Program-made: the position numbers and the translations under genes
Shown here: one piece after another, positions 51 to 36,328 of the stretch
Numbering within the stretch: the stretch's first letter is position 1
Layout of the letters: each line of letters opens with the position of its first letter
IMG/VR virus record: IMGVR_UViG_3300035703_000059
Span: 1-64,000 of that record
Length of the DNA: 64,000 nucleotides
From: a virus
Reading direction: 5' to 3' (one strand)
Notes under the pieces: generated by a model
Database searches by the model: none
The model's input: only the letters and a program-made list of their open reading frames with translations
What the model was told of the DNA's origin: nothing

Positions 51-2447
51 ATGACGGGTCAGCAGAAAACCGTCTCGCCGGAGGCGCAAGACATTCTCGA
101 CCGCCTCCGCGAGCATTACCGGCAGCAAGGAAAAGCCGCCGCTGCCGCAAACTACAACCGGCACCTCAAGTCGTTCTTCTCATGGGCCGAGGGGCAGGGG
201 TACTCGGTCAAGACCCTGCCGCCCGACTCCGTCGAGACTTTCCTCGCGGCCAGCGGCCAGAAGGAGACGACGGCCTACGTCATGCGGACGCAGATCAAGA
301 GCGCGCTCCGTGAGGCCCACGCGGCTCTCGGCGTCGACTTCGCCCATCTGGAGTACCAGACCGGCAAGCCCCGCGCGGTCCGCCAAGTTCAAAAACAGCG
401 CGAGAAAGAGAAGCGCGCCGAGAAGCGCGCCGCCGCCCTCGACGGCCAACAGCCCACCTTCCTGTTCGACCCGCACGCCCACAACCCCGTCCCCCACTAC
501 GCAGAGGAACCTTCGATGCCCCACGACGTCACCCAGCCGGAACCCCCGGCACCCGCCCCCGCGACCCCGTACCCCACCGGGGCATCGGCCGGCGGGGCTG
601 CGGGACAGCCAATCGTCATTCAGATGCAACAGCCGCGTCCGGTCGCCCCTGCGGCCGTCACCAAGGGTCCGACGGCGACCGCGCAGTCGGCCCAGCGGGG
701 CATCGTCATCAACAACCACACGTTCACCGGCCCCTACGTCAAAATCAGCCGGATTGCCGATGGTTCTGAGCCGTTCGTCGCTCCCGGCACGGAGACGTTC
801 GTGACCACGCTGCCGGCCTCGCAGCTTGTGCCGCACGGCGACCTTGGGGCGTTCCTCCAGCAGTTCATCGTGCCGGGGCTGCGGCTCGCCTCGACGACCG
901 CACAGGTTCAGTTCGTATTCCACGAACTCAACGACCGCCGTCAGCCGACCGGCCGGCGCGACGAACTCGTCGTCTCGGTGCCGATGGGCGGTTCGATGTT
1001 CGGCGGCCAACCGGCCAGCGCCCCGGCGCCTTCGATGCCGTTCGGCGGCTCGCTCCACGGGATGCCGGCCCCGGCCCCGCAGTTCGACCCCGCGACGGCG
1101 TACCTGCTCAAGAAGCTCGACGAGGAGTCCGAGGGCGCGAAGCGCCGGGCCGACGACCTCGCCGTCGAACTCAAGAAGGCGCAGGACGCGCAGACGCAGT
1201 TCCTCCTCATGCAGCAGATGCAGCGGGAGAACGACCTGCGGCGCGACTTGGAGGAGCGCAAGATTCGCGAGATGGAGCGCGCCCAGCAGACCGCCCTCGC
1301 GGCTTCGATGCCGCCCCCGATGCCGACCATCCTGCCGCCGGAGCCTAAGTCCGACGGGACTGCGGAACTCGTCCGCGCGCTGACCGAGTCGAACGCGCGG
1401 GTCTTTGAGGTCATGCTCGCCCGCACGAATCAGCCGGCGCCGGTCGCGCCGCAGCAGAAGGACGCCGCCGAGTGGGTGCTGCCGCTGATTTCGCAGATGC
1501 AGCAGCAGGCGATGGCCCAGCAGCAGGCGAACCAGCAGATGCTCGTTCAAATCATGCAGGGCAATCAGCAGTTCATGCAGGCGCTCGTCACGCGTGAATC
1601 GCCGGAGGTCAAACTCCTCCGTGACGAGTTGCGGGAGGTGAGGGCTGCGGCCAACGCCCCAAAAGGGGATGACATCGAGGAGTTCGCCGAGAAGTTCCAG
1701 AAGCTCAAGGTCGTCGGCGAACTGATGGGTGGCGGCGGCGGAGCCGCGACCACGGGCCTCATCGATAGCCTCGTCGCCAACGCGGACACCATCGGCGCTG
1801 GCGTCGCGAAGATTATCGCTGCCGCGAAGCCGACCCCGCGTCTGCCGATGCGCGCGCCGACGCCGATGGCCGGGGCGCCCATCCAGACCCAGCAGGCGCT
1901 CCCGCCCGGCCAGCCGCAGCAGCAGGCCGCGCCGCCGCCGAAGCCGGAGGTCGCCATCGCGCATCTGGCTGCCGCGTCCGAGGCCGCGCTCGCGGGCGAC
2001 CAAGAGCAGAAGGTCATCGACGAGGTCGTGTCGATGGTGCAGTCGCTCATGGGGCTGCCGCACCCGTTCCCGACCATCGGCCGCAAGGTGCTGGAGGCGC
2101 TGAAGCAGGTGAAAGACCACGATGACCTGTTCTCGGTCGCCAAGCATCTGTGGGTCGCCACCGGGCAGGAAATCGATAAGAAGGCGGCGCGGGCTATCGC
2201 CGACGTGTTCTACAAGTGGTTCCCGCTCGTCCACCAGAGCCTCTTCGGCGAGATGCGCTACCTCGACGGGCAGAGCGAGGAGATGTTCGCGGCCATCATG
2301 GCGGCGGGCGTCCCCCAGCCGGCAGAGGAGCCGGAGTCGGATGAGGAGTCCGGCGAGGACGGCGAGGACGACGGCGAGGAGTCGGAGGACGACGGCGCCA
2401 TCGATACTGCGGCTGTCGATGACAACGCCAAGACCATCGGTGGATAG
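51..2447 (+). CDS. Large Gln/Ala-rich protein with recombinase-like core-binding domain
   Basis: 798 aa; the ribosome site AAGGAG sits just before the ATG. Residues about 8-95 look like the SAM-like core-binding domain of tyrosine recombinases (short helices, a central W, conserved spacing), but no catalytic Arg/His/Tyr domain follows. A Pro/Ala linker leads to a compact mixed domain (about 215-330), then a charged coiled coil (about 345-425), a Gln-rich stretch (about 470-520), an Ala/Pro linker, a helical domain (about 640-750) and an acidic Glu/Asp tail. A strong terminator follows. I do not recognise the family. A DNA-binding scaffold or packaging accessory is possible but is inference. 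A reverse-strand frame of equal length is a shadow. Confidence 0.8.
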   Translation: MTGQQKTVSPEAQDILDRLREHYRQQGKAAAAANYNRHLKSFFSWAEGQGYSVKTLPPDSVETFLAASGQKETTAYVMRTQIKSALREAHAALGVDFAHLEYQTGKPRAVRQVQKQREKEKRAEKRAAALDGQQPTFLFDPHAHNPVPHYAEEPSMPHDVTQPEPPAPAPATPYPTGASAGGAAGQPIVIQMQQPRPVAPAAVTKGPTATAQSAQRGIVINNHTFTGPYVKISRIADGSEPFVAPGTETFVTTLPASQLVPHGDLGAFLQQFIVPGLRLASTTAQVQFVFHELNDRRQPTGRRDELVVSVPMGGSMFGGQPASAPAPSMPFGGSLHGMPAPAPQFDPATAYLLKKLDEESEGAKRRADDLAVELKKAQDAQTQFLLMQQMQRENDLRRDLEERKIREMERAQQTALAASMPPPMPTILPPEPKSDGTAELVRALTESNARVFEVMLARTNQPAPVAPQQKDAAEWVLPLISQMQQQAMAQQQANQQMLVQIMQGNQQFMQALVTRESPEVKLLRDELREVRAAANAPKGDDIEEFAEKFQKLKVVGELMGGGGGAATTGLIDSLVANADTIGAGVAKIIAAAKPTPRLPMRAPTPMAGAPIQTQQALPPGQPQQQAAPPPKPEVAIAHLAAASEAALAGDQEQKVIDEVVSMVQSLMGLPHPFPTIGRKVLEALKQVKDHDDLFSVAKHLWVATGQEIDKKAARAIADVFYKWFPLVHQSLFGEMRYLDGQSEEMFAAIMAAGVPQPAEEPESDEESGEDGEDDGEESEDDGAIDTAAVDDNAKTIGG

Positions 2448-2473
2448 GTAGAGTAGGCGTAAGTGTCGGAACG

Positions 2474-2508
2474 CGGGGAGTCGGCCACGGTGCCGGCTCC
2501 CCGTTTTT
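2474..2508 (+). terminator. Rho-independent terminator
   Basis: A 12-pair stem (CGGGGAGTCGGC with GCCGGCTCCCCG, one G-T pair) with a 6-base loop is followed by TTTTT. It separates the first large gene from the endolysin gene, which has its own promoter-like TAGGCT at 2514. Confidence 0.85.
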
Positions 2509-2513
2509 CGTGG

Positions 2514-2526
2514 TAGGCTGCGCGCC
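2514..2526 (+). promoter_or_regulatory. Leaderless promoter of the endolysin gene
   Basis: TAGGCT (2514-2519) is a -10 hexamer of the TANNNT type placed exactly 7 bases before the ATG at 2527. No Shine-Dalgarno sequence lies between, and a terminator sits just upstream. This geometry puts the transcript start at or next to the ATG. Confidence 0.6.
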
Positions 2527-3246
2527 ATGCCGCTCCTTACCATCAAGCTGCAACGCGTTCCCAACGTCCTCGGCATCTATGGCAAGTCGAAGGACGAGTT
2601 CCCGCAGTCGGCGTCGTGGCTCCACCCGGACGCCGCTCGCGGGTTCGCGGCTCTGCAAGCCGGCCTCGGCCAGCGGGTGCGCGTTTCTGACGTGTTTCGG
2701 ACCGCTGAGCAGTCGCTCGCGGCGCGCGCCATGAAGTCCGGCGTTCAGCCGCCGGGGTTCTCGCTCCACAACTACGGCATCGCCATCGACATCCACACCG
2801 ACGCCATGCTCGCGGCGCTCAAGCTGGACAAGCCGGCCCTCGACAAGCGGTTCACCGAACACGGGTGGTTCTGCCACCGCAAGGACGGCAAGCGCGGCAT
2901 GGAGGATTGGCACTTCAACTTTCTCGGTGTCGGCGACGAAGCCGCGCCGTTCCTCGCGGCGAGCGCGAAGTCGTCGAACACGTCGGCCGCCGGGGATGCG
3001 AAAATCCGCGCGATTCACGGCGACGACTTGACGCTGACCCCTGCGGAGGCGCAGGAAGCGCTGAAAAAGCTGCGGATGTACCACGGCGACCTCGACGGCA
3101 AGTTCGGTCCCCGGTCGCAGCAGGCGCTCATGGTGTTCCAGCGGGCGTGGAAGCTCGTTGACTCCGGCGTGCTGGACGCCAAGACTGAGCGAACACTCGC
3201 CTACGTCACCGCGAATCGCGTCGAACTCGACCCGGCGTCGGTCTAA
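2527..3246 (+). CDS. Endolysin: M15-type peptidoglycan peptidase with peptidoglycan-binding domain
   Basis: 239 aa. The N-terminal two thirds match zinc peptidases of the M15 (VanY/L-Ala-D-Glu peptidase) type: the zinc motif shows as H81 and D88 in FSLHNYGIAIDIH, with the second His in MEDWHF (H129) and a candidate catalytic Glu just before it. Residues about 159-239 form a PG_binding_1 type repeat (LTPAEAQEALKKL, DLDGKFGPRSQQALMVFQ). There is no signal peptide, so it needs a holin or acts from the virion. It follows a terminator, has no Shine-Dalgarno, and appears leaderless. It should cut peptide cross-links during lysis or entry. The family call is secure; exact bond specificity is not. 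Confidence 0.88.
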   Translation: MPLLTIKLQRVPNVLGIYGKSKDEFPQSASWLHPDAARGFAALQAGLGQRVRVSDVFRTAEQSLAARAMKSGVQPPGFSLHNYGIAIDIHTDAMLAALKLDKPALDKRFTEHGWFCHRKDGKRGMEDWHFNFLGVGDEAAPFLAASAKSSNTSAAGDAKIRAIHGDDLTLTPAEAQEALKKLRMYHGDLDGKFGPRSQQALMVFQRAWKLVDSGVLDAKTERTLAYVTANRVELDPASV

Positions 3247-3255
3247 GGGGCATCG

Positions 3256-4023: not shown

Positions 4024-4043
4024 CCCATCGAAGGAGTCCGCTC

Positions 4044-4430: not shown

Positions 4431-4438
4431 GGTGGCGC

Positions 4439-5712: not shown

Positions 5713-5733
5713 GTGCTGGAACCGGGTCGCACG

Positions 5734-6325: not shown

Positions 6326-8377
6326 ATGGCTAACGTGAGGAAGTTTCTCTTTTTCGACCCGGCGACGGGTCAGTATCGGGAGCAGACCGCGACCGATACC
6401 ATTCAGATCGCGAACGGCGTTGACGCGCTGGACGCGGTGAACAAGAGCCAGCTTGACGCCGTTGCGGCGGCGGCGGATGCGGCTGTCGAGGCCGAGGAAG
6501 CCCGCGCTCTCGCAGCCGAGGCGGCTCTCCAGAGCGCCATCGATGGCGTGGCGGCCGACCTGTCGGACGAGGTTGATCGCGCGACTGCGGCCGAGCAGGC
6601 CATCGCGGCTGACCTTGCGACCGAGGTTTCGGATCGCGAGGCGGCGATCACGGCTCTCGACGCGGAACTGTCGGCCGACATTCTGGCCGAGCAGACCCGC
6701 GCGCAGGCGGCCGAGGCTTCGCTTCAGTCGGCGCTGACGCAGGAGATCGCGGACCGCGTCGCTGGCGACCTCACCGAGAAGAACCGGGCCGAGGCTGCCG
6801 AGGCTTCGCTGCTGTCGGCGATCAACACCGAGGTCAGCGACCGTATCGCTGCGGTGAGCGCCGAGGCTTCGGCTCGCGCTGCGGCCGACGCGACCGAGCT
6901 GGCTCGCGCGCAGGCGGCGGAAGCCGACCTTCAGTCGCAGATCACCGCCGAGGTTGCGGCGCGTGAGGCCGCGATCACGTCGCTCAACAGCACCCTGTCG
7001 GCGGCCATCACCGCCGAGGAGACGGCCCGCATCGCTGCGGACGGCGTGCTCCAGAGCAACATCGATGATGAGGAGTCGGCTCGTATCGCTGCCGACGCGA
7101 CCCTCACGTCGGACCTCGCGGCCGAGGTTGCGCGTGCGACCGCCGCCGAGAGCGTGCTGACCGCCGACCTCGCGTCGGAGGTTGCGGCTCGCGAGGCCGC
7201 CGTCTCTGCCGAGGCGCTGGCTCGCCAGAACGCCGATGACGGCCTTGCCGCCGACATCGCGGCCGAGGAAGTGCGTGCGCTGGCCGCCGAGGGCGTCCTT
7301 CAGTCGAACATCGATGCCGAGGAAGCGGCGCGTATCGCGGCCGTTTCGGCCGAAGAGGCCGCTCGCATCGCTGGCGATGCCGCGACCCTCGCGTCGGCGA
7401 ACGCCTACGCCGATAGCCTCGTCGAAGGCATCTCGTTCAAGTCGTCCGTGCGCGTCGCGCTGCCGACTTCGTTCGATATGGGCGGCAGCACGATCAATAT
7501 GCCCGCCGACTACGCCAGCGTGGCGTCGGCCCTCGGTACTGAGGCCGGCGACCGCATCCTGCTGATCCAGCCGGAAGGTTCGGCTGGCGCCATGAACGCC
7601 GGTATCTACGTCGTGAACAGCGGCAACACCGCGCTCGTTCGCGCGCCGGATATGGCGGTTGGCTCTGACGCGTCGGGCGCCTACGTCTACGTCGAAGAGG
7701 GCGTGGTCGGAAGCACCATCCCGCACGCCAACCCCGGAACGTCGTTCGTTTGCGCCAACGTCAAGGGTGGCGACATCGTTGGCACCGACCCGCTCGATTT
7801 CGCGGTGTTCCAGCGCGTCGAGAACCTGACCTTCTCCAACGGGGTTCAGAAGATCGGCCTCGACGTTTCGGCCAAGGTCAAGACGAACGGCGCCATCGGC
7901 GCGGGCAGCAACGGGCTTGAGCTGCTGTTCGACACCACCCTGCTGAAGATCGATGGCAGCGGCAACGTCACCATCAACGACCCGCTCGCCGGTGGCCCGC
8001 TGAACATCGCGGACAGCCTGCACGGCCACAGCCACACCAGCGCGGTGCGGCCGTCGACCGCTGCCAACGAGGCGCACTTCGCCAAGTTCAACGGCGACAG
8101 CGCGACGTGGGACTCCTCGTCCTGCATGGCGTTCGTGGAATCGAAGGACGGCAGCGGCACCGCCGTCATCGTGTTCAGCGGCAAGGGCGAGCACTCGTCG
8201 CTCTCCACCGCGCTGTCGGCCTTCTCGGTCGGCGACACGGTGTACGTCGGCGGCGTTGCGGGCGAGTTCTCGGACTTCGCCAGCGTGCCGAGCGGCAAGT
8301 GGGCCATCCCGGTCGGCAAGAAGATGGCGTCGAACGCCCTCCTCGTCGACATCGGAACGGCGCTGCTGAAGGCGTAA
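6326..8377 (+). CDS. Long coiled-coil stalk/fibre protein
   Basis: 683 aa with ribosome site AGGAGCAAGACG. Residues 1-45 resemble phage fibre N-termini (FFDPATGQY, then VDALDAVNKSQLDAV). Residues about 45-360 are an uninterrupted repetitive helix built from variants of RA-AAE--LQS-I--E---R-AA, as in trimeric stalks. The C-terminal 300 residues switch to Gly/Ser/Thr/Asn-rich beta sequence, presumably a receptor-binding head. The head contains a GHSHTS segment like those that bind metal in fibre tips. A terminator follows. Binding partner unknown. Confidence 0.75.
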   Translation: MANVRKFLFFDPATGQYREQTATDTIQIANGVDALDAVNKSQLDAVAAAADAAVEAEEARALAAEAALQSAIDGVAADLSDEVDRATAAEQAIAADLATEVSDREAAITALDAELSADILAEQTRAQAAEASLQSALTQEIADRVAGDLTEKNRAEAAEASLLSAINTEVSDRIAAVSAEASARAAADATELARAQAAEADLQSQITAEVAAREAAITSLNSTLSAAITAEETARIAADGVLQSNIDDEESARIAADATLTSDLAAEVARATAAESVLTADLASEVAAREAAVSAEALARQNADDGLAADIAAEEVRALAAEGVLQSNIDAEEAARIAAVSAEEAARIAGDAATLASANAYADSLVEGISFKSSVRVALPTSFDMGGSTINMPADYASVASALGTEAGDRILLIQPEGSAGAMNAGIYVVNSGNTALVRAPDMAVGSDASGAYVYVEEGVVGSTIPHANPGTSFVCANVKGGDIVGTDPLDFAVFQRVENLTFSNGVQKIGLDVSAKVKTNGAIGAGSNGLELLFDTTLLKIDGSGNVTINDPLAGGPLNIADSLHGHSHTSAVRPSTAANEAHFAKFNGDSATWDSSSCMAFVESKDGSGTAVIVFSGKGEHSSLSTALSAFSVGDTVYVGGVAGEFSDFASVPSGKWAIPVGKKMASNALLVDIGTALLKA

Positions 8378-24199: not shown

Positions 24200-24838
24200 G
24201 TGGCGATTCTGACTCCCGCTCCGATCAACTTTCAGCAGAAAATCCGCAGCGAACTTGCGGAGGCTCTGCGGCTGAACTTCGGCGACATCTTTCCGACCAT
24301 CCTGCACCTTCGGGTGACGCTGGGCGGGACGCTGAACCCCGGACCGCCCCCGACGGTGACGCTGCCGACCCCCGGCAACGACATCTTCCGCATCCCCGGC
24401 GACTACTCGCTGCTCGTCGGCGAGATTCGCGGCCACATCGCGCTCAACGAACTGTCGCAGGAGTCGACGACGGCTCCGACGAACACGGGCCTTCTGAACA
24501 TCGCCGGTGTGCGTAACCGCGTCGTCGCCAAGGCGCTGAACGCGCGCATGGTGCTGGTCAACGCGGACCGCGACAATCTGAAGTTCGTGGAGACGGACAT
24601 CGCGAACAGCGCGAACCCGCTGGGCATCAGCGCGAACCTCTGCCTCGCGAACCTGCTCCCGGCGGCCGGTGGCTCCCCGATCAAGCTGATCGGGGACGGC
24701 GACGTCATGCCGCTCATCGTGCCGGGCAACGAGCGCATCAAGCTGACCGTCGCACTCAACGACGAGAACGCGTCGCTGGGCCAGACGGAGTACGGACTGA
24801 CGCTGATGGGCGCCTTCGTGCGTTCGCGGGGTAGCTGA
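24200..24838 (+). CDS. Small beta-rich virion protein B (paralogue of 23616 product)
   Basis: 212 aa starting at GTG after AAGGGGAAAAACC. It shares the C-terminal TEYG-(hydrophobic)-GAF motif and two internal blocks with the 23616 product. The stop overlaps the next ATG by one base (TGATG). Viruses with two small single-beta-barrel capsid proteins encode such pairs side by side; this is the closest analogy, not proof. Confidence 0.5.
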   Translation: MAILTPAPINFQQKIRSELAEALRLNFGDIFPTILHLRVTLGGTLNPGPPPTVTLPTPGNDIFRIPGDYSLLVGEIRGHIALNELSQESTTAPTNTGLLNIAGVRNRVVAKALNARMVLVNADRDNLKFVETDIANSANPLGISANLCLANLLPAAGGSPIKLIGDGDVMPLIVPGNERIKLTVALNDENASLGQTEYGLTLMGAFVRSRGS

Positions 24839-26631: not shown

Positions 26632-26642
26632 GGAGAATCGAT

Positions 26643-27950
26643 ATGGCTAACAATCGTCGAAACGTGGTCCCCAGCCAGATTGCCCCCCAGCTTATGCAGA
26701 TGCGCGATCTGTCTGCCGGCAACGACATCTACCGTCAGTCGCGCCGCGCCGTCGAGGCGATGGCCGCGCTGGAGCGTCGGCGTCAAATTCTGACGTCGAA
26801 GGGCTACGTCTCTGAGGCGGGCCGCACGTTGCAGGGCATGGCGGATGTGTTCGCCGCCGCTCCGACGCTGCCGGAACTGGAGAACGCGATCAAGCAGCTT
26901 CTCCCCGACGGCTCCATCGTCAGCGGTCGCGAGTATTACGACCGCATCCAGAAGCAACTGAACCCGGTCTGGTACAACGGCGGCTACTCCCGCCCCTCGG
27001 ACTTCAACGAGTTCGTCAAGCAGAACCTCAAGGTGACGAACTACCCGGCCGAGTACCAGCCCTACGTCATGCCGGGCGTGCAGGCCGCGTCGTACTTCTA
27101 CGTCACGCAGCAGGCGCAGAAGGCCGGTTCGGCTCTCAGCGGCTTCAGCCCCGCTCCGCGCAGCGTCGTCGAGGGCGCGCGCATGGAGGAGCAGGCGCGC
27201 AAGAAGGCTGTGGCGCTGATGGCGCTCGCGGGCCTTGGGCGAATCGGTAAGGGCGTTGAGCGTTGCTGGGGATTCAACTGCCCCGACGAGACGGGTGACT
27301 TTGAGTTCACGGTTCCCGCGTCGATTGTGAATTCCAAGCTGACGGGCATCGATTACTTGAAGATGAACACGTCATGGATGTCGGGGACGGCGGGATGCCA
27401 GACCGAAATCACCAATAAGTCCGGCGGCAAGGTGTTCGGCCTCGCCATCGATGACGGCGACTCAAACAGCTACAACAACGCCAACGCGATCCGTCGAGTG
27501 AAGGCCGCCGCCGTCGCGCAGGCGCTCTACAAGGTGGGCGGCGAGGCGTACTTGACGCTTCCCAACCTCTACACCTATGGCGCCATGAAGGCGCATGACG
27601 TGCGAGAGCTTGAGCAGCTTATCCGCACCTATGGTACGGCAGACCGGATTGCAGCCAGCGCACAGAAACCGCCCGACACGTTGTTCGGGGACGGGTCGAG
27701 TTCTCGGTCGAGTAGCTGTAAATTCGACATGGGTAAGATGCCCTCGCTGGACGACGTGGCGAAGGTTTGGGACACCGTTTCGTCGCGGATTCCCGGCGGC
27801 GGCGGAGAGGTGACTCCTCCTCCGGGCGGCGACACGCCTCCCCCCGACGACGAGGAGAAGGGCGGGATCGATGCGCTGACGATGGTCGGCGTCGTCGGCG
27901 TCCTCGCCCTCGGCGGCATCGCGCTCTACTTCGCGCGCCAGAACCGATAG
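26643..27950 (+). CDS. Membrane-anchored virion protein
   Basis: 435 aa starting at ATG in GGAGAATCGATATGG. Largely helical N-terminal 240 residues, then a beta-containing middle with a few Cys, a Pro/Gly linker (GGGGEVTPPPGGDTPPPDDE) and one terminal span (MVGVVGVLALGGIALYFA) ending RQNR. No family recognised. It is part of a four-gene run of C-terminally anchored proteins (24838-28818). Confidence 0.6.
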   Translation: MANNRRNVVPSQIAPQLMQMRDLSAGNDIYRQSRRAVEAMAALERRRQILTSKGYVSEAGRTLQGMADVFAAAPTLPELENAIKQLLPDGSIVSGREYYDRIQKQLNPVWYNGGYSRPSDFNEFVKQNLKVTNYPAEYQPYVMPGVQAASYFYVTQQAQKAGSALSGFSPAPRSVVEGARMEEQARKKAVALMALAGLGRIGKGVERCWGFNCPDETGDFEFTVPASIVNSKLTGIDYLKMNTSWMSGTAGCQTEITNKSGGKVFGLAIDDGDSNSYNNANAIRRVKAAAVAQALYKVGGEAYLTLPNLYTYGAMKAHDVRELEQLIRTYGTADRIAASAQKPPDTLFGDGSSSRSSSCKFDMGKMPSLDDVAKVWDTVSSRIPGGGGEVTPPPGGDTPPPDDEEKGGIDALTMVGVVGVLALGGIALYFARQNR

Positions 27951-27960
27951 GAGGCGTGTC

Positions 27961-28218
27961 ATGGCTTGTTCCGCAGACGTTTTGACGAAGTACCCGGCCG
28001 GCACGCTTGAGAACTACAAGCGGTATCCCAACGTCCAGTTCGCGAATGAGTGCTGGTACGGCTACGACGGCGTCAACACGGTCGTTTGGGCGCAAGATCC
28101 CGCCGTGCTTTACAAGGGGCAGGTCGACGACAAGATGAGCACCACGCAGATGATCGGGTGGGGCGTTCTTGGCCTCGCCCTCGTCTACGGGATCTGGTCA
28201 GCGTCGAAGAGCCGATAA
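27961..28218 (+). CDS. Small C-terminally anchored protein
   Basis: 85 aa, ribosome site TAGGAGG. A soluble 55-residue start with two Cys is followed by the span MIGWGVLGLALVYGIW and SASKSR. It starts 10 bases after the previous gene. Confidence 0.55.
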   Translation: MACSADVLTKYPAGTLENYKRYPNVQFANECWYGYDGVNTVVWAQDPAVLYKGQVDDKMSTTQMIGWGVLGLALVYGIWSASKSR

Positions 28219-28230
28219 CCGGGAGAAGCC

Positions 28231-28818
28231 GTGGCCGAAACTCGTCGATTTTCACAGGCCAACGACTTCGGATTCGTCAACCGTCAAGACGACGAGGTGA
28301 TGTGCGCCGCAAGCGGCGCCGTGCCGTATCGGACGGTCTGCCAAGTCATCGATGACGCGGCGATCTACTACGCAACCGCCGGGGAAGGCGCCCTGCTCGA
28401 CATCCGGCGCTGGTACAGCCAAAGCCCCGAATTCTTCCCCGGCTCGTTCCTCCCGGCGGGCGCGATTCCGGCGTTCTACCGGGCGATTCTGGCGCGTGCG
28501 TTTTTCGCCGAGTTTGGCGGCGCGAACTTCGTCCCGACGCTTCGGCAGATGATCGTCGTGCTGAACATGGTCGAGGAACCGCGCGGGCGTGAGGACGACT
28601 ACGCCAAGACGCGGACGGCGGTGAAGGCGATCCTCGGCGTGTGCGAAAAGACGTTCAACGGACAGCCCGCGTGCAGTCCGGGGGAAATATCGTGGGCCGC
28701 AGAGCGGATGAACGCCCTTGATCGGGCAGAAACCGCCGGCCCCGGCGTCAACATGATGCTCATCGCCGTTCCGGCGCTCTTGTTTGCGGGCGCGCTGCTG
28801 CTTCGGCGGCGCGGGTAG
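28231..28818 (+). CDS. C-terminally anchored protein
   Basis: 195 aa starting with GTG after GGGAGAAGCC. The soluble part is mostly helical with Cys at VMCAAS, TVCQVI, GVCEKT and PACSPG. It ends with the span MMLIAVPALLFAGALLL and RRRG. Same C-terminal design as its neighbours. Confidence 0.55.
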   Translation: MAETRRFSQANDFGFVNRQDDEVMCAASGAVPYRTVCQVIDDAAIYYATAGEGALLDIRRWYSQSPEFFPGSFLPAGAIPAFYRAILARAFFAEFGGANFVPTLRQMIVVLNMVEEPRGREDDYAKTRTAVKAILGVCEKTFNGQPACSPGEISWAAERMNALDRAETAGPGVNMMLIAVPALLFAGALLLRRRG

Positions 28819-28827
28819 GGGAACGCG

Positions 28828-30927
28828 ATGGCCGACAACGAGAACACCACACCGCCGGGATTCGTCAGCACCTTTCCCGTGTTCGCTGAGTGCGATTCCA
28901 TTCTGCGCGCAACGCGGGAGGGCATCGGTCTTTTGACGGGTGGGGAAGAGGGCAGGCGCCGGGTCGATGTGAAGTACCTTCGATGCCAGCTTCTCACGCA
29001 GAGCCGGACCGAACTTGGAGATCGGTCGCTGCTCCAGTTTCCGCTGTGGTGGGACTGCCGGCCGACGAGCGGCACCTTCGATCCGGGTGACGTTTTGCGG
29101 CGGGCCTACGCAAAATACACGCAGAAAGACCCCAACTCTGCGGACATCGGATTCATCGCAGGCATCCTTCGCGAGATCGACGACCTTCAAGAGGGGGGCG
29201 GCTCCAGCGAGGACCGGGCCAACTACGAGGGAAACGCGGGTTCGTACACCATCATTCAGAACCTCCTGCTGGCCCTCTCCGACTTCCCTCGGCAGGGGTC
29301 GGACGGACGCGCGAACCTTGAGACAATCGTCGATTTGTCGCTGCGCGTGACCGACTCGATCAAAGACATCATCGTCAAAGCGTTTCCGGCGGCGGGCGGC
29401 GTCGGCGACAACGTCGTCCGCATCCTCAAGATTTTCCTCGACGGCATCTTCTACATGGGTGACGCGGTCGCCGAGGAGAAGGCGCTGCGGACCGAGATGG
29501 CCTCGCGGCTAATCTCCGACGAACGCGTGACGAACGTCGGCGGCGGCTACGAGAAGTTCTACGGCAACCGGCCATCGATGATCACGACCCGGTCGTGGTG
29601 CGCTGCCGGAAACGCTGCGCGCGACAACTACCTCGCCCCCGGAACGAACGGCGCGTACCTTCGGGCGAAGACCCGATACGATGACGCGCGGCGGTTCTTG
29701 GACACGTTCGCCGCGATGCTTGAGCGGACGCAGGGCGAGTCGACGCCGAAGACGCGCGAGCGGGTATTCGCACGATTCCAGCTAATCGGAAGCTGGATGC
29801 TGGCGTATGCCGCCGACGAGGTATGGCTGTCGGATTACATTACCTACGACACCATCTTCGACCGCCTTCGATTGTCGGCGGCAGACGCGGTCGTGAAGGT
29901 GACGTTTGAGCCGAGGCTCATCGAGTTCAAGCGCCTCTACCCGTATTCGGCGCGGGCGGCGACTCGTCTTGAGTGCGATTACCCCGACTGCGACACGGAT
30001 TTCTGGATTCCGTTTTGGGCGGACACGAAAGCCGGAAACTGGAATCTGAAAACCGGAACTGCCGACATCGGTGTGACGGAAAAGGCGATCAGAGACGCGA
30101 CGAACATCACCTTCGACTTTTACGCCACCGCGATTCCGAAGCGAAGCGTGACCGGGCGCCGGTACAACAGCTACAAGTCGAAGTCGGTCGTGGACGTGTC
30201 GCTTACGGTCATGCCGCTTGTGAACACGCTGTATGAGTGGGCGCGAGCCGCTGCCCCTACATGGGGGAAGATTAAGCAATACAATCTGATCCGTTACGCG
30301 CTGACCGGGTACGCGACCGGCGCCGTCAAAGACTTCGGCGAGTACGCGAAGAACCGCATCGATGTCTACGACCCGGCGTTTCGCCAGAGGTTCATCGACA
30401 CCCCGCTGACGTGGCAGCAGATCGCGCTCTACATCATCGCCGGGCGCACGGACCTTGGGCCGCAGCCGAGGCCGGAAGAGTTCAACGTCGCGGCGACGCG
30501 GTGTCCCGGCGGCTCGTCGGACACGTCCTGCCTGCCCTGCGAGAAGATCAAGAATCGGCGCCCCATCGGCGCACGGGAAGTCCAAATCCCGATGCTCGTC
30601 GGCTACACGCCGCCTCTGGCGACGTTCGTCGGCAGCACGAACTATCGGGGTTCGGTGGAGTACGCGGCGTGGCGAAAGGCGCTCGTCGATGCGGGTTATC
30701 CGGGGTACTACATCGACTGCATCGAACGTGACGTGACGTGGGTGTCCTCGCGGGCTGGCGAGGTGATTTCGGTTCGTCCGCCGCCGCCGCTCGTCGTCAG
30801 TCTACCGCTGGCCGCTGTGCCGAAGCCCCGCGCGGTGCGGACGTCGGACATTCCCGAACTCACCGGAATCACCCGGCCGCTCGTCGCCGAGATCGCGGGG
30901 CCGATGCTGCCTCGAAGGACTCGATAA
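28828..30927 (+). CDS. Large virion or membrane-associated protein, unknown
   Basis: 699 aa, the largest gene of this run. It is soluble, mixed alpha/beta, with scattered Cys (LECDYPDCDTDF, TRCPGGSSDTSCLPCEKI). The next gene starts directly at its stop (TAA then ATG), so the two are coupled. Neither an ATPase P-loop nor portal or terminase features are visible. A vertex, adhesin or genome-delivery role is possible; I do not recognise it. Confidence 0.6.
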   Translation: MADNENTTPPGFVSTFPVFAECDSILRATREGIGLLTGGEEGRRRVDVKYLRCQLLTQSRTELGDRSLLQFPLWWDCRPTSGTFDPGDVLRRAYAKYTQKDPNSADIGFIAGILREIDDLQEGGGSSEDRANYEGNAGSYTIIQNLLLALSDFPRQGSDGRANLETIVDLSLRVTDSIKDIIVKAFPAAGGVGDNVVRILKIFLDGIFYMGDAVAEEKALRTEMASRLISDERVTNVGGGYEKFYGNRPSMITTRSWCAAGNAARDNYLAPGTNGAYLRAKTRYDDARRFLDTFAAMLERTQGESTPKTRERVFARFQLIGSWMLAYAADEVWLSDYITYDTIFDRLRLSAADAVVKVTFEPRLIEFKRLYPYSARAATRLECDYPDCDTDFWIPFWADTKAGNWNLKTGTADIGVTEKAIRDATNITFDFYATAIPKRSVTGRRYNSYKSKSVVDVSLTVMPLVNTLYEWARAAAPTWGKIKQYNLIRYALTGYATGAVKDFGEYAKNRIDVYDPAFRQRFIDTPLTWQQIALYIIAGRTDLGPQPRPEEFNVAATRCPGGSSDTSCLPCEKIKNRRPIGAREVQIPMLVGYTPPLATFVGSTNYRGSVEYAAWRKALVDAGYPGYYIDCIERDVTWVSSRAGEVISVRPPPPLVVSLPLAAVPKPRAVRTSDIPELTGITRPLVAEIAGPMLPRRTR

Positions 30928-31731
30928 ATGGACACCCCCATCTACAAGCGCGCATGGTTCTGGGTCGTCGTCGGTGGGGCGATTCTCCTCGCCATCCGCC
31001 GCAAGCAGGTCGAACTGACCCCTCCGCCGAAGCTGCCGGGGCCGGAGGTCGCGCCTCCGTCGGGGTCGGCGTCGATTGACCCGTTCCGCACGACGAACCT
31101 GTCGGCCGAGCAGGAGCGCGCGTTCATCGCCGCCCTGCCGAGAGCCGGCCAGCAGTACGGCGCGCTGTTCGCACAGGCGGGTCGCGAGAAGGGCATCTCG
31201 CCGCTCTTGCTCGCGGCCATCTGCGAGACGGAGACGTACTACGGCGAGGCGGCGGCGTGCAAAGGCAAGGGTCCGGCCTGCGAGGGAACGCTCGCCGACG
31301 ACTTCGGCCTCATGCAGATCAACAGCAAGGCGCACCCGGAGTTCTTCAAGCGAAGCGTCAACGGCACGCCCGCGTGGAAGGTGCCGCTGGAAAACATCCG
31401 CTACGGTGCCGAGGTCTGGAACTCGTCGCTCGCATCGATGCGCGGGCGTCCGAACTCCAGCGGCAAGGTCGACGTCGGCGCGCGGCGAGCCGCGCAGCTT
31501 CTCGTCAAGCCGGGCAAGTACCCCGACCCGCGTCCGATGGACATCGATCTCGCACGCTGGGCCGCGACTTCGGGCTACAATGCAGGACCGATGGCGGCAA
31601 TCATCGCGGTGGCGGCGGACAGGTCGCCGGACGCCGTGACGCACGGCAGCAAGTACGGCAAGACGGTTCTGGACAAGCTGGGGAGAATCTTCAACAAGAC
31701 GGTCGAGAACTTGAACCGGGGAGCACAATGA
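30928..31731 (+). CDS. Membrane-anchored lytic transglycosylase (SLT domain)
   Basis: 267 aa. Residues 9-24 are one hydrophobic span followed by RRK. From about 75 on there is a goose-type/SLT lysozyme fold: catalytic Glu in LLLAAICETETYYG, DDFGLMQINSKAHPEF, then ARWAATSGYNAG, the classic three SLT signatures. The enzyme cuts glycan strands. Its N-terminal anchor fits local wall opening during genome entry from a virion membrane, as for transglycosylases in membrane viruses. The ATGA overlap couples it to the next gene. Confidence 0.85.
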   Translation: MDTPIYKRAWFWVVVGGAILLAIRRKQVELTPPPKLPGPEVAPPSGSASIDPFRTTNLSAEQERAFIAALPRAGQQYGALFAQAGREKGISPLLLAAICETETYYGEAAACKGKGPACEGTLADDFGLMQINSKAHPEFFKRSVNGTPAWKVPLENIRYGAEVWNSSLASMRGRPNSSGKVDVGARRAAQLLVKPGKYPDPRPMDIDLARWAATSGYNAGPMAAIIAVAADRSPDAVTHGSKYGKTVLDKLGRIFNKTVENLNRGAQ

Positions 31732-31925: not shown

Positions 31926-31934
31926 GAGTCATCG

Positions 31935-32306
31935 ATGGCCGATATGATTGCGATGCTGAACGGGCTGGGCGCCTACGGCGAGTTTCCGATTGGGGACGTC
32001 GATCCGGCGACGAGCGCGCGCATCGGCCAGACCTCGCCGGGGACGGGCCTGTCGAACGAGCAGATCACCGTCTACAACCCGCAGCCGTACACGCTGGGGA
32101 AGATCGACGACGAGGAAGAGGGTCTGAGCGGGACGACGTGGCTGTTCATCGTGCTGGGCCTCGGCGCTGCGGCGTGGGGCATCTCCAAGATGGTCAAGTC
32201 TGCGTCGCCGGAGCCGGGCGAGGACTTCCTCGACGGCATCGCCGAGCCGGAGATGATCGAACTCAACGCGCCCCCCGCACGCACGCGGGGCAAGGGGAAG
32301 CGATGA
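31935..32306 (+). CDS. Single-span membrane protein
   Basis: 123 aa, start in AGGAGTCATCGATGG. A soluble 70 residues is followed by a span at about 74-92 (WLFIVLGLGAAAWGISKMV) and a 30-residue acidic/basic tail ending RGKGKR. It overlaps the next gene (ATGA). Confidence 0.6.
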   Translation: MADMIAMLNGLGAYGEFPIGDVDPATSARIGQTSPGTGLSNEQITVYNPQPYTLGKIDDEEEGLSGTTWLFIVLGLGAAAWGISKMVKSASPEPGEDFLDGIAEPEMIELNAPPARTRGKGKR

Positions 32307-32533
32307 CGCTTGAGCAATTTCTCGCCGACGACCGGACCCGCGAACTGATGACGCGCATCGTCAACGGTGAGCCGCCGAAGTCGGCTGTGGCCGGACTCGC
32401 GGGAAACGTGCTGGCCGCAGAACTTGCGAAGTTGATGGGCGTTCCGCCGCCCCCGATGACGCAGGCATCGAAGCAAACGGTGACGGTCAAAGCGACGCCC
32501 GACGTGGTCGACGCAGAATTCAAAGAGGTGTGA
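32303..32533 (+). CDS. Small helical protein, unknown
   Basis: 76 aa, translationally coupled to the previous gene. An acidic helical first half is followed by a Pro-rich link (GVPPPPM) and a Thr/Val-rich end. No span, no Cys. Confidence 0.5.
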   Translation: MTLEQFLADDRTRELMTRIVNGEPPKSAVAGLAGNVLAAELAKLMGVPPPPMTQASKQTVTVKATPDVVDAEFKEV

Positions 32534-32534
32534 G

Positions 32535-32927
32535 ATGGCTCGCGAAGTGAACTACTACCAGTTGGCGGCTCTTGGGGCGGACGCCTGTCCCGCCAACATG
32601 AGGACGGTGCAGAAGCCCGACGGCGGCGTCGAGTGCGTGCCGCTGGAAGGTCCGGCTCCGCAGGGCTACCTCGCGCGGATCAAGGGCGCCGCGACGACCG
32701 AAGAGTTGTCGGCGGTCTACAACGGCGCGCTCGTTGACCCGGCGGTGTCTCGCGAGATGCTGAAGGAACTCGGCGAAGCCTACGCGTGGAAGTACGCCGA
32801 ACTGACGACGAGGCCGGGCAAGAAGGGGCTGCGTTGGCACCATGCGTTCTACGTCGTCGGCGTCGCGCTCCTCTGGAACGCGTGGCGCAAGTCGCAGGGC
32901 AAGCCGTTCAATCCGTTTTCACGGTAG
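32535..32927 (+). CDS. C-terminally anchored small protein
   Basis: 130 aa, starting one base after the previous stop. Two Cys near the start (DACPANM, VECVPLE), a helical centre and a terminal hydrophobic segment (HHAFYVVGVALLWNAW) followed by RKSQGK. Confidence 0.55.
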   Translation: MAREVNYYQLAALGADACPANMRTVQKPDGGVECVPLEGPAPQGYLARIKGAATTEELSAVYNGALVDPAVSREMLKELGEAYAWKYAELTTRPGKKGLRWHHAFYVVGVALLWNAWRKSQGKPFNPFSR

Positions 32928-32938
32928 GGGAGATACCG

Positions 32939-33229
32939 ATGAAGCCGATGCTGACGTTCGTCTACATGGATGGGTGCGGGGCGTGCGAGACGGCGAAGCC
33001 GGAACTCGACGCGTTCAAGGCCGCGCACCCGGAGATCGCCATTCGACGAATCGACCTTCTCGCGGTCCGCTGGCCGGAGGGGTCGTGGGCGCCGACGGCG
33101 ACGCCGACCTATCTCGCGGAGTTCGGGAACCGTCGGCCGGTGGGGTACGTCGGCGCGCTCAAGAAGGCGCAGATCGAGCAGTTCCTTCGTGAAGCCGCGC
33201 CGCGACTCGGACTCGCGGCTCCGTTCTGA
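32939..33229 (+). CDS. Thioredoxin-like protein
   Basis: 96 aa with GGGGAG before the ATG. The sequence TFVYMDGCGACETAKPELDAF has the strand-CxxC-helix start of thioredoxins (Cys13, Cys16), followed by IAIRRIDL, then the cis-Pro region TATPTYLAEF. The full length is that of a minimal thioredoxin fold. It could form disulphides in the many Cys-containing virion proteins nearby; that role is inference. Confidence 0.75.
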   Translation: MKPMLTFVYMDGCGACETAKPELDAFKAAHPEIAIRRIDLLAVRWPEGSWAPTATPTYLAEFGNRRPVGYVGALKKAQIEQFLREAAPRLGLAAPF

Positions 33230-33238
33230 GGCGCATCG

Positions 33239-33556
33239 ATGACTCTCCTCGCCATCCTCGCCATCGGATTCGCCGCCGCCGGCCTCGCGCTCGTCGTTCG
33301 CGCGCTCGTCCCGACGCTGTGGCTCCTCATCAAGCCGTTCTCCTGCGACCTCTGTATGTCGTGGTGGGGGTCGGTGGTGTTCACGCTTCTCGCCGGGGAG
33401 TGGTCCGTGGACGCGCTGACGGGCCTGTTCGGAGGCGTCGCAGTCTCGGTCGCGATGCTGAAGGTCGTCTCTTCGTTGTCCGATGTGGGCGCCGCGCCCC
33501 CGCCCACGTTGTCGGATTCCCCCGACTTGGGCGATACTTTTCCCGAAAAGGAGTGA
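33239..33556 (+). CDS. Two-span membrane protein with CxxC
   Basis: 105 aa. Hydrophobic N-terminal segment 2-32, then FSCDLCMSWW and a second span near 45-75, with a polar tail. The CxxC followed by aromatic residues recalls small DUF1360-type membrane proteins. It sits next to the thioredoxin-like gene, so a thiol partner is conceivable. Confidence 0.55.
   Translation: MTLLAILAIGFAAAGLALVVRALVPTLWLLIKPFSCDLCMSWWGSVVFTLLAGEWSVDALTGLFGGVAVSVAMLKVVSSLSDVGAAPPPTLSDSPDLGDTFPEKE
33509..33538 (+). promoter_or_regulatory. Promoter of the 33561 gene
   Basis: TTGTCG (33509-33514), an 18-base spacer and GATACT (33533-33538) lie in the end of the upstream gene. The AAAAGGAGTGACCCC leader and ATG at 33561 follow. 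Confidence 0.45.
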
Positions 33557-33560
33557 CCCC

Positions 33561-34406
33561 ATGTTCTCTTCCGGCAATCCCGAACTGATGTCCGCCCTCG
33601 CCGGCATCGCGCGCCTCGGCGCCGCGCCGAGCGTGACCAAGCGTGCGAAGAAGCTGCCCGCAGAAGCGCGCGCGGAGTTGAGGTCGATTCAGAAGCGGTT
33701 TGCCGATGATCGCAAGGCCGCCATCGAAGCGCTGTTCGCGAAGTACCCCGCAGCGAAGATGCTGTCGCCGAAGGAGATGAGCGAGATTCGGCAGGTCGTC
33801 GATCTCTTCATCCTCAACGACGACTCCAAGGTGACGTCGTCGGGCGTGCAGTCGGACGGCGGCATGACGCTCAAGGTCGGCGGCAAGGTCGTCGCCGAGC
33901 GCAAGGCTCCGTACTCCCGATTCATGCGCGTCTGTGCCGGCGAGTTCGGTGCGGATATGACCAGCCGCCGCGCGGCGAACGCGCTGCTCGACGCGCTGGG
34001 CGCGGGCCTCTCGTTCCGTGACCGCGACGGTCGCGCGTTCATCACCCCGAAGGGGCGCGGCGCCGGTCGTCTGGTGTCCGAGTCGGCGTGCCACACCGTC
34101 GAGGTCAACGCTTCGATGCGTAACCGCGCAGTCGCCAACGTGAACCGCGCCATCCGCGAAGCCGGTCTGGACATCCAGCGGTTCGCCATGCCGACCGAGG
34201 GCGCATCGGCGACGTCGCCGGTGCAGCGCGCGGTCGCGGCTCGCGAGGCGACGGCTGCGGCCGAGCGCGCAGCGGTGGCCGAGGCGTATCGTGGAAGTCA
34301 GTCGGCGGCGGCGCAGTACGAGTCGATGGTTTCGCGCCCCACCAAGCGTCAGCAGGCTGCACGGAAGGCGGCGGCGACCCGCCGTCGGAACGCGTCGCGT
34401 CGATAG
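33561..34406 (+). CDS. Basic alpha-helical protein, unknown
   Basis: 281 aa from ATG at 33561 after AAAAGGAG. Highly basic at the C-terminus (KRQQAARKAAATRRRNASRR) with an Ala-rich helix before it; the central part (SRFMRVCAGEFGADMT, AFITPKGRGAG) is a compact domain. No span. It has its own promoter and precedes the Lys-rich protein, so nucleic-acid binding in the virion is plausible. Confidence 0.6.
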   Translation: MFSSGNPELMSALAGIARLGAAPSVTKRAKKLPAEARAELRSIQKRFADDRKAAIEALFAKYPAAKMLSPKEMSEIRQVVDLFILNDDSKVTSSGVQSDGGMTLKVGGKVVAERKAPYSRFMRVCAGEFGADMTSRRAANALLDALGAGLSFRDRDGRAFITPKGRGAGRLVSESACHTVEVNASMRNRAVANVNRAIREAGLDIQRFAMPTEGASATSPVQRAVAAREATAAAERAAVAEAYRGSQSAAAQYESMVSRPTKRQQAARKAAATRRRNASRR

Positions 34407-34475
34407 TCAGTCAACCTTGCGGCGTAGACCGCACAACAAGCGGCACCCCCGCCGCGCAAGAAACAGGAGGCCGTT

Positions 34476-34664
34476 ATGGCTGCAAAGCGTCCGAAGAAGG
34501 TGATGGCGAAGATCAAGGGCAAGAAGATGGAGTGCAAGCTGAACTGGAAGGGCAAGGATCCCAAGAAGAAGCCGAAGGCGTCCTGCAAGCCCGTCGTCGC
34601 CAAGAAGGCCTCCAAGAAGAAGGCCTCCAAGAAGAAGAGCAGCAAGAAGTCGAGCAAGAAGTAA
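34476..34664 (+). CDS. Lys-rich histone-H1-like protein
   Basis: 62 aa, ribosome site ACAGGAGG. The C-terminal 25 residues consist mainly of Lys/Ser/Ala (KKASKKKASKKKSSKKSSKK), the start carries two Cys. Such tails condense DNA non-specifically. It may neutralise the packaged genome. Confidence 0.7.
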   Translation: MAAKRPKKVMAKIKGKKMECKLNWKGKDPKKKPKASCKPVVAKKASKKKASKKKSSKKSSKK

Positions 34665-34747
34665 TCGACGCCCTGCACCACTAGGGTCGATGAACGCAGG
34701 GGTCGTCGGACAGGTGCCGACGGCCCCTCGTCTTTACGGAGGAATCG

Positions 34748-35083
34748 ATGGAACCGACACCGTTCACAGGCAGCTTGACGTTCGATCACGTTCTCGCGTT
34801 TCTCGGCGCGCTGGTGCCGCTGATGAGCGCGCTCGCGGCGTTCCTCAACCACAAGGTCCGCGTCAGCGGGACGGCGTCGCCGTTCCTGCTCAACGCGGCG
34901 GCGGCGGTGAACGTGCTGGCCGTCAACGTCGACAAGGCGACCCAGCTTGCGAAGCTCGCACGCGGTCTGCCGGTGCCGTCGACTCCCGCACCGGCGGCTC
35001 CCGCCGTGGTGGACGTCGGCGCAGCGGCCGTTGAGCCGGCGCCTGCGGGTCAGCCGGAAGTGTGTCCGACGTGCGGGCGCTAA
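34748..35083 (+). CDS. Small membrane protein, holin candidate
   Basis: 111 aa, ribosome site GGAGGAATCGATGG. One hydrophobic stretch at about 13-35 (VLAFLGALVPLMSALAAFL) is followed by NHKVR, a Pro/Ala-rich tail and a terminal CPTCGR. It begins the overlapping four-gene membrane cassette that looks like a lysis set. Holin is a guess from position and size. Confidence 0.5.
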   Translation: MEPTPFTGSLTFDHVLAFLGALVPLMSALAAFLNHKVRVSGTASPFLLNAAAAVNVLAVNVDKATQLAKLARGLPVPSTPAPAAPAVVDVGAAAVEPAPAGQPEVCPTCGR

Positions 35084-35343
35084 TCGCGTCGGTGGTGACG
35101 GGGCTGGTCGTCGCGCTTTCGACGGCTGCCCTGTTCCTGCTCCGCGTCATCCCTCGCCGGGACGAGGAGCAGCGTCAGCGGGCGGAGGCATTGGCCGCCG
35201 ACCTGCGGCGGAAGATCGAGGAAGCCAAGGCCGCTCGCGCGGCGGCGGTCGCGCAGCAGGTCGCGGTGGTGACGCAGGCCGGCGAGGCGGACAAGAGCGC
35301 CGACTCCGTGGGCGTCGCGAACCGAATCATCGGAGGCTCGTGA
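35062..35343 (+). CDS. Inner-membrane spanin-like protein (GTG start)
   Basis: 93 aa starting at GTG inside the previous gene (22-base overlap). N-terminal span (residues 6-27, ALIASVVTGLVVALSTAALFLL) then RVIPRRDEEQRQR and a long charged helix. This is the layout of Rz-type inner spanins. It ends in a TGATG overlap with the next gene. Confidence 0.55.
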   Translation: MSDVRALIASVVTGLVVALSTAALFLLRVIPRRDEEQRQRAEALAADLRRKIEEAKAARAAAVAQQVAVVTQAGEADKSADSVGVANRIIGGS

Positions 35344-35564
35344 TGCAGAACCAGAAGAACACCCAGCTTGTTCGCATGGCCGACGTGTTCGTCATCGGCC
35401 CGCTGATGACCTACGGCGGACTCCGCATGATGAAGAGCGGCGAGAAGCTGCTCGGCCTCACGCTCGCGGCGTTCGGTCTGGCGACCGTCGTCTATAACGG
35501 CGTGAACTACATCGATATGAAAGAAGCGCTCGACCGAGAGGACCGCATCGATGGGCCGATTTGA
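35343..35564 (+). CDS. Small membrane protein of the lysis cassette
   Basis: 73 aa. Two modest hydrophobic segments (VFVIGPLMTYGGL and LLGLTLAAFGLATVVY) around a basic turn. The start overlaps the previous stop by one base, and the end overlaps the next gene by 14 bases. Possibly a second holin component. Confidence 0.5.
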   Translation: MQNQKNTQLVRMADVFVIGPLMTYGGLRMMKSGEKLLGLTLAAFGLATVVYNGVNYIDMKEALDREDRIDGPI

Positions 35565-36000
35565 GTGGGTCTTGATCGCGCTGTACGGCGCGCTCCTCGC
35601 GTGGATTCCGATGTGCCACGACGCGCGCGCCGACGAGGCGTGCCGGGCAGTCGGCGACACCGTCGTCTGCCAGCGCGCGGGGTTCGACACGCTCGTCGAC
35701 AAGTGCGTGGACGCCGACACGCGGGCCAAGGTCTGCTCGATCAATCTCTTTGAGGCGGTCCGCCAGCGCGACGAGTCGCGCGCGGCGTTCGACGCCTGTG
35801 CGGCAGCGCCGCGCCCCGTGCCTCCGCCCCCGCCGGAGCCGTCCCGGCGTCCGCTGGTGGCCGTGGCCGTCGCTGCGGCAGGTGCGGCGGCTGTCGCCCT
35901 GTCGGCGACGCTCGACGTGCCTGTGGGCGCCCGTGCGGCCCTCGCAGGGGCCGGCGTGCTGGGCATGGGCGCGGGTGTCGGCCTCGCGGTGGCGTGGTAG
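35551..36000 (+). CDS. Secreted or membrane protein with four Cys
   Basis: 149 aa. An N-terminal hydrophobic start (WVLIALYGALLAWIPMC) is followed by a domain with paired Cys (DEACRAV, VVCQRA, DKCVDA, KVCSIN), a Pro-rich link and two terminal hydrophobic segments (about 103-120 and 127-147). Overlaps the previous gene. It could be the outer partner of the spanin-like protein or an unrelated envelope protein. Confidence 0.5.
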   Translation: MGRFEWVLIALYGALLAWIPMCHDARADEACRAVGDTVVCQRAGFDTLVDKCVDADTRAKVCSINLFEAVRQRDESRAAFDACAAAPRPVPPPPPEPSRRPLVAVAVAAAGAAAVALSATLDVPVGARAALAGAGVLGMGAGVGLAVAW

Positions 36001-36046
36001 GCTCGCGGGGACACCGCGCAACTGATTGCGCCAACAGGAGTCATCG

Positions 36047-36328
36047 ATGGCAGCCAAGAAGAAGAGGAAGTCCTCGTCGAAACGCAAGATGACGGAGGCG
36101 CAGTACCGCGCTGCCGTGCGCGCAGGACGTATCGTTCCGGCCAACTACCAAGCGGCCGTGATGGCCGACGTTGATGACGAGTGGAACCGGGCCGTGCGCC
36201 GGCAGCAGGGCGTCGGCGGGCTTACCAGCCCCGACGGCGTCATGGGATTGGCCGTCGGCGCGGTGATCGGAATCGTGGGCGCGCTCCTGTGGAAAGCGTC
36301 GAGCGACATCGCGAAGAAAGACGCGTAG
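36047..36328 (+). CDS. Basic protein with C-terminal membrane span
   Basis: 93 aa, start in AGGAGTCATCGATGG. Very basic start (KKKRKSSSKRK), helical middle and a span at about 66-84 (GVMGLAVGAVIGIVGALLW), ending SSDIAKKDA. Last gene of the + block. Confidence 0.6.
   Translation: MAAKKKRKSSSKRKMTEAQYRAAVRAGRIVPANYQAAVMADVDDEWNRAVRRQQGVGGLTSPDGVMGLAVGAVIGIVGALLWKASSDIAKKDA

Follow-up and report, generated by a model that had tools for sequence, protein, structure and literature searches.

The 64,000-base stretch analysed here (the window) comprises bases 1–64,000 of the IMG/VR virus record IMGVR_UViG_3300035703_000059, 75,406 bases in total, and probably represents most of the circular double-stranded DNA (dsDNA) genome of a large virus without a tail, akin to SSIP-1. 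The particle is most likely icosahedral, and an internal membrane is probable. SSIP-1 is a tailless virus of about 100 nm with a 44-kb circular dsDNA genome, T=49 symmetry, an internal membrane and two major capsid proteins (PMC6260650, PMC6356626, PMC4958249). An earlier note, made from the letters of the window, had raised the possibility of a large tailless membrane-containing virus. Its large and tailless part is now well supported, because the genome is a closed circle, neither a terminase nor a portal, HK97 capsid or tail gene other than a collagen-like fibre is recognisable in it, two paralogues are candidates for a jelly-roll capsid and relatedness to SSIP-1 is detected; the membrane we infer from transmembrane (TM) content and from this kinship.

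The first 127 bases of the record are exactly its last 127, and a relative, G001 (85,791 bases), likewise repeats 127 bases at both ends; 127 is a usual largest k-mer in assembly. As the overlap occurs in two different genomes and an open frame spans the end junction in G001, the simplest reading of both is a closed circle, of 75,279 and 85,664 bp respectively, and the lack of packaging genes can therefore be assessed on an entire genome. Two partial relatives, G002 (57.3 kb) and G003 (52.6 kb), complete the set of four genomes compared (G000 being the record, the other three coming from IMG/VR virus contigs), all with a G+C content of about 65–67%. The circle falls into three parts: a structural block on the + strand (g01–g50, positions 51–36328), a replication block on the − strand that runs from g51 to roughly 68.5 kb, and a short mixed arm.

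The structural block contains hydrolases (g02, g13, g37), fibres (g08, g09) and many small proteins. PHROG batch scans (best 25 families listed, so that a very weak match could escape notice) of nearly all predicted proteins of at least 45 amino acids in the 75.3-kb circle, two short genes (record 64276–64479 and 70524–70682) lying outside them, reveal no recognisable gene for a terminase, portal, HK97 capsid, tape measure, sheath or tube. The same library detects three hallmark genes of the tailed phage Kuura, namely its terminase (1e-55), portal (3e-9) and capsid (9e-25). Six-frame Pfam searches for terminase, portal and capsid are also negative, which is weak evidence because the three models tested on Kuura and Serbin (Terminase_6C, TerL and HK97) miss both of these tailed phages. 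Neither PHROGs nor Pfam give a match for the Caudoviricetes hallmark set (terminase large subunit, portal, HK97 capsid) anywhere in the closed circle. A PHROG "tail protein" match proved to be the GDSL lipase g24 and a "terminase small subunit" match the helix-turn-helix protein g75; the other tail-type match seen is the collagen-like fibre g09, via its repeat region.

The HerA/FtsK packaging ATPase model phrog_2666, which recovers P23-77 (2.9e-40) and SH1 (1.6e-78), has no match in the four genomes, nor in SSIP-1. The FtsK Pfam model gives a sub-threshold match on the SbcC-like Walker A and a match above its cut-off in PM2; it misses P23-77 and SH1, and its result is not relied on. The gene content described for 36 kb in the earlier note is confirmed, with the absences extended to the whole circle, and its size of more than 64 kb is specified as 75.3 kb, a relative closing at 85.7 kb. 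Its alternative for packaging, genes either absent or of the FtsK/HerA type outside the window, is narrowed to absence, as the rest of the record, searched as it had proposed, shows neither a recognisable packaging ATPase nor a recognisable terminase. The range of 10–35 kb that it gave for known membrane-containing bacterial viruses is exceeded by SSIP-1, at 43.8 kb.

Kinship with SSIP-1 is carried by two homologues and by gene order. The g11 product, like the G001 protein G001_121, corresponds to gp34, annotated in SSIP-1 as a structural protein; SSIP-1 is the sole match of g11 among 50,697 phages (E 5e-4), and a Cys-His-Asp set (DCD...H.Y...LDPT) is conserved. The g37 product corresponds to gp54, in a class of enzymes, the transglycosylases, that is widespread. 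A possible third counterpart is g28, which sits directly upstream of the capsid genes as gp44 does; this link is weak (profile hidden Markov model (HMM) E 0.0015; hhalign P 0.0012 over 78 columns, in a search where unrelated families score alike). With that weak link included, the SSIP-1 order gp34 – gp44 – gp45/gp46 – gp54 is matched, in the same orientation, by g11 – g28 – g29/g30/g31 – g37. The SSIP-1 virion ATPase gp40 is RecA-like, with PHROG matches to UvsX and Sak4, and the RecA-type g83, located in the replication module, aligns weakly to it (hhalign).

The capsid candidates g29, g30 and g31 are common to all four genomes. Like gp45/gp46 of SSIP-1, g30 and g31 are adjacent, mutually related proteins of about 200 amino acids. 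AlphaFold2, run on a joint g30/g31 alignment, predicts for g31 a jelly-roll-like beta sandwich, whose viral matches among solved structures are HHIV-2 (Z 6.6), the STIV turret (6.6), SPV1 (6.5), HCIV-1 (6.4), SH1 (6.2) and PR772 (6.1). These matches support the predicted fold of g31, not its membership of a family. Structure prediction, proposed in the earlier note for the products starting at 22864, 23616 and 24200, therefore succeeded in part: the third gives a jelly-roll of moderate confidence, the second is its paralogue, and the first gives no usable fold. Sequence searches of solved structures are negative, g29 has no family match in Pfam and PHROG scans, no sequence link joins g29–g31 to SH1/P23-77 capsid proteins, and, with regard to the double jelly-roll protein of Tectiviridae/Corticoviridae, none of the capsid candidates has a family match. 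In relatives, proteins directly downstream of the capsid genes (L010:3905-5062; G002_060 on L016; G003_022 and G003_024 on L017) have an N-terminal ILPPRR-like motif, beyond which they are not obviously alignable.

Several results weigh against a tailless, membrane-containing virus of the SSIP-1 kind. The most conserved virion candidate, g29, is left without a fold (pLDDT 40). The top solved-structure match of g31 is a peptidylglycine monooxygenase (Z 7.5) and its best matches are non-viral beta-sandwiches; Z below 8 may reflect a common arrangement, and the model itself is of moderate confidence. Profile comparison detects no sequence similarity of SSIP-1 gp45–gp47 to g29–g31 (g31 being represented, as in the comparison with SH1/P23-77 capsid proteins, by the joint profile A2 and a family file named for g30). 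Finally, tailed controls have a predicted TM segment in 18–32% of their proteins (Serbin 32%) and SSIP-1 itself in 26%, so that membrane-containing and tailed viruses are not cleanly separated.

It could be argued that the element belongs to the tailed phages (Caudoviricetes) and that divergence has put its terminase, portal, capsid and tail proteins beyond recognition, as its module of polymerase A with a uracil-DNA-glycosylase domain (UDG-PolA), Sak4 and PD-(D/E)XK nuclease is of tailed-phage type, g09 is similar to tail fibres and some Pfam models miss real tailed phages. We consider this unlikely: the PHROGs that find the Kuura hallmarks find nothing here, a control on which a hidden terminase was rejected, no gene resembles a tape measure, and both the pair of ~200-amino-acid paralogues with its jelly-roll model and the gp34/gp54 homologues in matching order argue against it. 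A plasmid or satellite borrowing the capsid of another virus would be circular, with a ParB-like protein, a tyrosine recombinase and no packaging motor, as is the case here. It is nevertheless highly improbable, as the structural block makes up half of the genome and includes an endolysin, fibres and SSIP-1 virion homologues, g29 is unmatched in 72,556 plasmids and the relatives are IMG/VR virus contigs.

There is also little probability that the virus is tailless and icosahedral, with the same capsid type, and devoid of an internal membrane. The proportion of structural-block proteins with a predicted TM segment (40%, versus 7% in the − block) is only moderately above that of the tailed controls, which leaves room for such a virus, and TM content taken as proof of a membrane was discarded as moderately informative at best. 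Against it, nine + block proteins have a C-terminal TM anchor, versus 2 in each tailed control; the lipase g24 carries such an anchor, and the nearest relative, SSIP-1, has a membrane (PMC6356626, PMC6260650). TM content and SSIP-1 kinship together support a virus that is probably membrane-containing. The features on which this analysis is based are collected in Table 1.

Table 1. Predicted genes and gene clusters of the circular element (window positions unless marked as record positions; TM, transmembrane; pLDDT, predicted local distance difference test; pTM, predicted template modelling score).
Feature	Position	Strand	Assignment	Evidence
g02	2527..3246	+	Endolysin: VanY D-Ala-D-Ala carboxypeptidase and peptidoglycan-binding domain	Pfam PG_binding_1 6.9e-9, VanY 1.1e-5; PHROG endolysin 6e-11
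g08	6326..8377	+	Coiled-coil fibre or stalk	YadA_stalk 2.7e-4 (under Pfam cut-off, weak); alanine-rich repeats
g09	8521..10746	+	Collagen-like glycine-rich fibre	GXY repeats; PHROG tail-fibre matches
g11	10994..11767	+	Candidate cysteine protease, transglutaminase-like; homologous to SSIP-1 virion protein gp34	Family HMM 1.6e-9; hhalign 95%
g13	12111..13316	+	LysM protein, one TM segment	Pfam LysM 9.6e-6; TM scan
g24	20212..20904	+	GDSL esterase/lipase, C-terminal TM anchor	Pfam Lipase_GDSL_2 1.9e-13; TM at 208
g27	21858..22067	+	Tiny very basic two-Cys protein (+16), family I	Same place in G001, G002
g28	22149..22784	+	Membrane protein immediately 5' of capsid genes; possible SSIP-1 gp44 counterpart	Family in all four genomes
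g29	22864..23499	+	Virion protein candidate	Most conserved protein of structural block, 57-69% identity
g30	23616..24188	+	Capsid protein candidate, g31 paralogue	hhalign A3 vs A4 99%, E 5.7e-18, 29% identity
g31	24200..24838	+	Single jelly-roll capsid protein candidate	AlphaFold2 pLDDT 66.5, pTM 0.60
g32-g36	24838..30927	+	Virion protein candidates	g33, g35 with C-terminal TM anchor (TM scan)
g37	30928..31731	+	Transglycosylase, N-terminal hydrophobic segment; SSIP-1 gp54 homologue	Pfam SLT 5.3e-8; HMM 1.6e-9; hhalign 96.6%
g39-g50	31935..36328	+	Small-protein cluster, many with one TM segment, including thioredoxin-like g42	
g45	34476..34664	+	Tiny basic two-Cys protein (+26, 45% K/R), family II	Same position in G001-G003
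g52	36705..37697	-	Tyrosine recombinase, in all four genomes	Pfam Phage_integrase 4.2e-12; 55-58% in relatives
g74	46703..47746	-	ParB-like protein	PHROG 5.7e-20
g76	49496..51163	-	SbcC/AAA_23-like ATPase	Pfam 3.5e-7; 46-51% in relatives
g79	52136..54787	-	DNA polymerase A with uracil-DNA-glycosylase domain	Pfam 1e-44, 4.7e-13; 58-60% in relatives
g81	55652..56245	-	Conserved protein, adjoins g83	All four genomes, 32-57%
g83	56621..57523	-	RecA-fold ATPase (Sak4/AAA_24)	Pfam AAA_24 8.4e-16; PHROG Sak4 6.6e-18
g98	62758..63582	-	PD-(D/E)XK nuclease	Pfam 5.5e-11
Further basic proteins	record 71100-71465, 74033-74347			

A recurrent feature of the four genomes is a set of tiny basic proteins. When these are defined by a length of at most 150 amino acids and a net charge per residue of 0.18 or more, each genome encodes 4–6 of them, mostly with exactly two cysteines, versus one in nine control viruses together (SSIP-1, P23-77, SH1, PM2, Serbin, Kuura, GTE2, Molivia and 50 kb of Rctr197k). 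Four families occur in more than one genome; family I lies just upstream of the capsid genes and family II where the structural block ends. These proteins may be protamine-like condensers of the genome.

The tripeptide GLG is about twofold enriched in structural-block proteins (56 seen versus 29 ± 5 after shuffling), an effect that is overstated because homologous copies and some TM segments are counted; the replication block (18 seen versus 21 shuffled) and SSIP-1 have no such excess. Its context is often (L/M/A)xGLG(A/D/Y), as in MLNGLGAYG (31935–32306), MLSGLGDLS (24838–26631) and ILAGLGNYG (22149–22784), and the (L/M/A)xGLG shape recalls the adenovirus protease consensus. The motif looks like a maturation cleavage site, for which g11 would be the candidate protease.

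If the element is an SSIP-1-like tailless virus, g30 and g31 would form the capsid and g29 would be an additional virion protein, and the many small TM proteins would lie in a lipid vesicle beneath the capsid. The g08 and g09 proteins could serve as receptor-binding fibres or spikes, and membrane-anchored g37 and g24 could open the cell envelope during DNA delivery through the membrane. Virion proteins might be matured by g11, perhaps at (L/M)xGLG sites, and the genome, condensed by the two-cysteine proteins, might enter the particle via a RecA-type ATPase (g83, compare SSIP-1 gp40) or by motorless co-assembly. One broader possibility, which we put forward tentatively, is that these genomes represent a new high-rank group of bacterial viruses, 75–86 kb in size, tailless and with a membrane, that would be distant allies of SSIP-1 and have a paralogous single jelly-roll capsid pair. 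Their particle would be filled without terminase or HerA/FtsK, through protamine-like condensation in which a RecA-type ATPase may or may not take part, and matured by proteolysis at GLG sites. In taxonomic terms alone, a new high-rank group is plausible.

The replication set (UDG-PolA, Sak4, PD-(D/E)XK nuclease and SbcC-like ATPase, together with a helicase and a DUF3987 protein at 66.9–70.1 kb of the record) resembles that of tailed phages. Its g83 is the most conserved protein of the genome (68–73% in relatives), a recombination protein and a possible packaging candidate. The adjoining g81 has no significant family match in Pfam and PHROG, and could by position alone be a single-stranded-DNA-binding partner. 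The tyrosine recombinase and ParB-like protein suggest an integrating or plasmid-like phase. A non-coding region at record 72935–73282 (L002:10935-11282) contains a 61-nt inverted repeat (87%) and GTAGGTAGAA repeated in both orientations, and is a possible origin or attachment site. Between the ParB-like and helix-turn-helix genes, 1.46 kb without a called gene (window 47747–49209) holds a strong hairpin (47983–48028) and repeated G+C-rich motifs, and is possibly a partition or regulatory region.

Among the remaining structural-block genes, g32, g33 and g36 have no Pfam or PHROG match and g35 none in PHROGs. At the start of the block, g01 (window 51–2447) weakly matches the core-binding, SAM-like domain found in tyrosine recombinases, and a catalytic domain is not detected in it; G001_113 (L012:19075-19980) and h18 (L002:9848-10870) resemble it by eye. 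A lone tRNA-Asn (GTT) lies within the block on the opposite strand (window 18922–18996).

A search of IMG/VR with g83 gives 22 loci, the majority at 65–74% identity and several with the same neighbourhood. A set at 45–47% has otherwise different genes; the more distant contigs L047–L049 (g83 about 45%) have the replication module in common, with a polymerase protein of 1225–1321 amino acids, and differ in their other genes. A search of 84,980 GTDB genomes of bacteria and archaea, which requires exact short patterns, gave no relatives of g29 or g83.

SSIP-1 has been without close relatives in phage collections since 2012. With relatives of up to twice its size, small genomes would no longer be a limit for tailless membrane phages, and an SSIP-1-type virion would prove combinable with a tailed-phage replication module. 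As the usual packaging motors are missing, the question of genome packaging is raised, for which g11, g27/g45, g29–g31 and g83 are concrete proteins.

When compared with known systems, the replication genes resemble those of the tailed Serratia phage Serbin and Caulobacter phage Kuura, which also have a PolA and PD-(D/E)XK module in a separate convergent block; their terminase, portal, major capsid and tail genes, in contrast, are not recognisable here. With Tectiviridae and Corticoviridae (PRD1, PM2), which have one double jelly-roll capsid protein, an FtsK/HerA ATPase and genomes of 7–18 kb (PMC5894146), the element shares the tailless state, a probable membrane and membrane-anchored lytic enzymes. 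Matshushitaviridae and Sphaerolipoviridae (P23-77, SH1, HHIV-2, HCIV-1; realm Singelaviria) have smaller genomes (17–31 kb), no convincing sequence similarity and, in P23-77 and SH1 (Singelaviria/Helvetiavirae), the phrog_2666 ATPase not found here. They nevertheless resemble the element in two adjacent single jelly-roll capsid candidates and many small TM proteins, P23-77 in its transglycosylase, and the HHIV-2, HCIV-1 and SH1 chains in the predicted structure of g31 (Z 6.2–6.6). SSIP-1 differs by a genome 1.7–2 times smaller, by capsid sequences not detectably related, and by the absence of the PolA/Sak4/PD-(D/E)XK module and of the several tiny basic two-cysteine proteins. It shares with the element the lack of both terminase and phrog_2666 ATPase, circular dsDNA, the gp34/g11 and gp54/g37 pairs, the gene order and two paralogues of about 200 amino acids.

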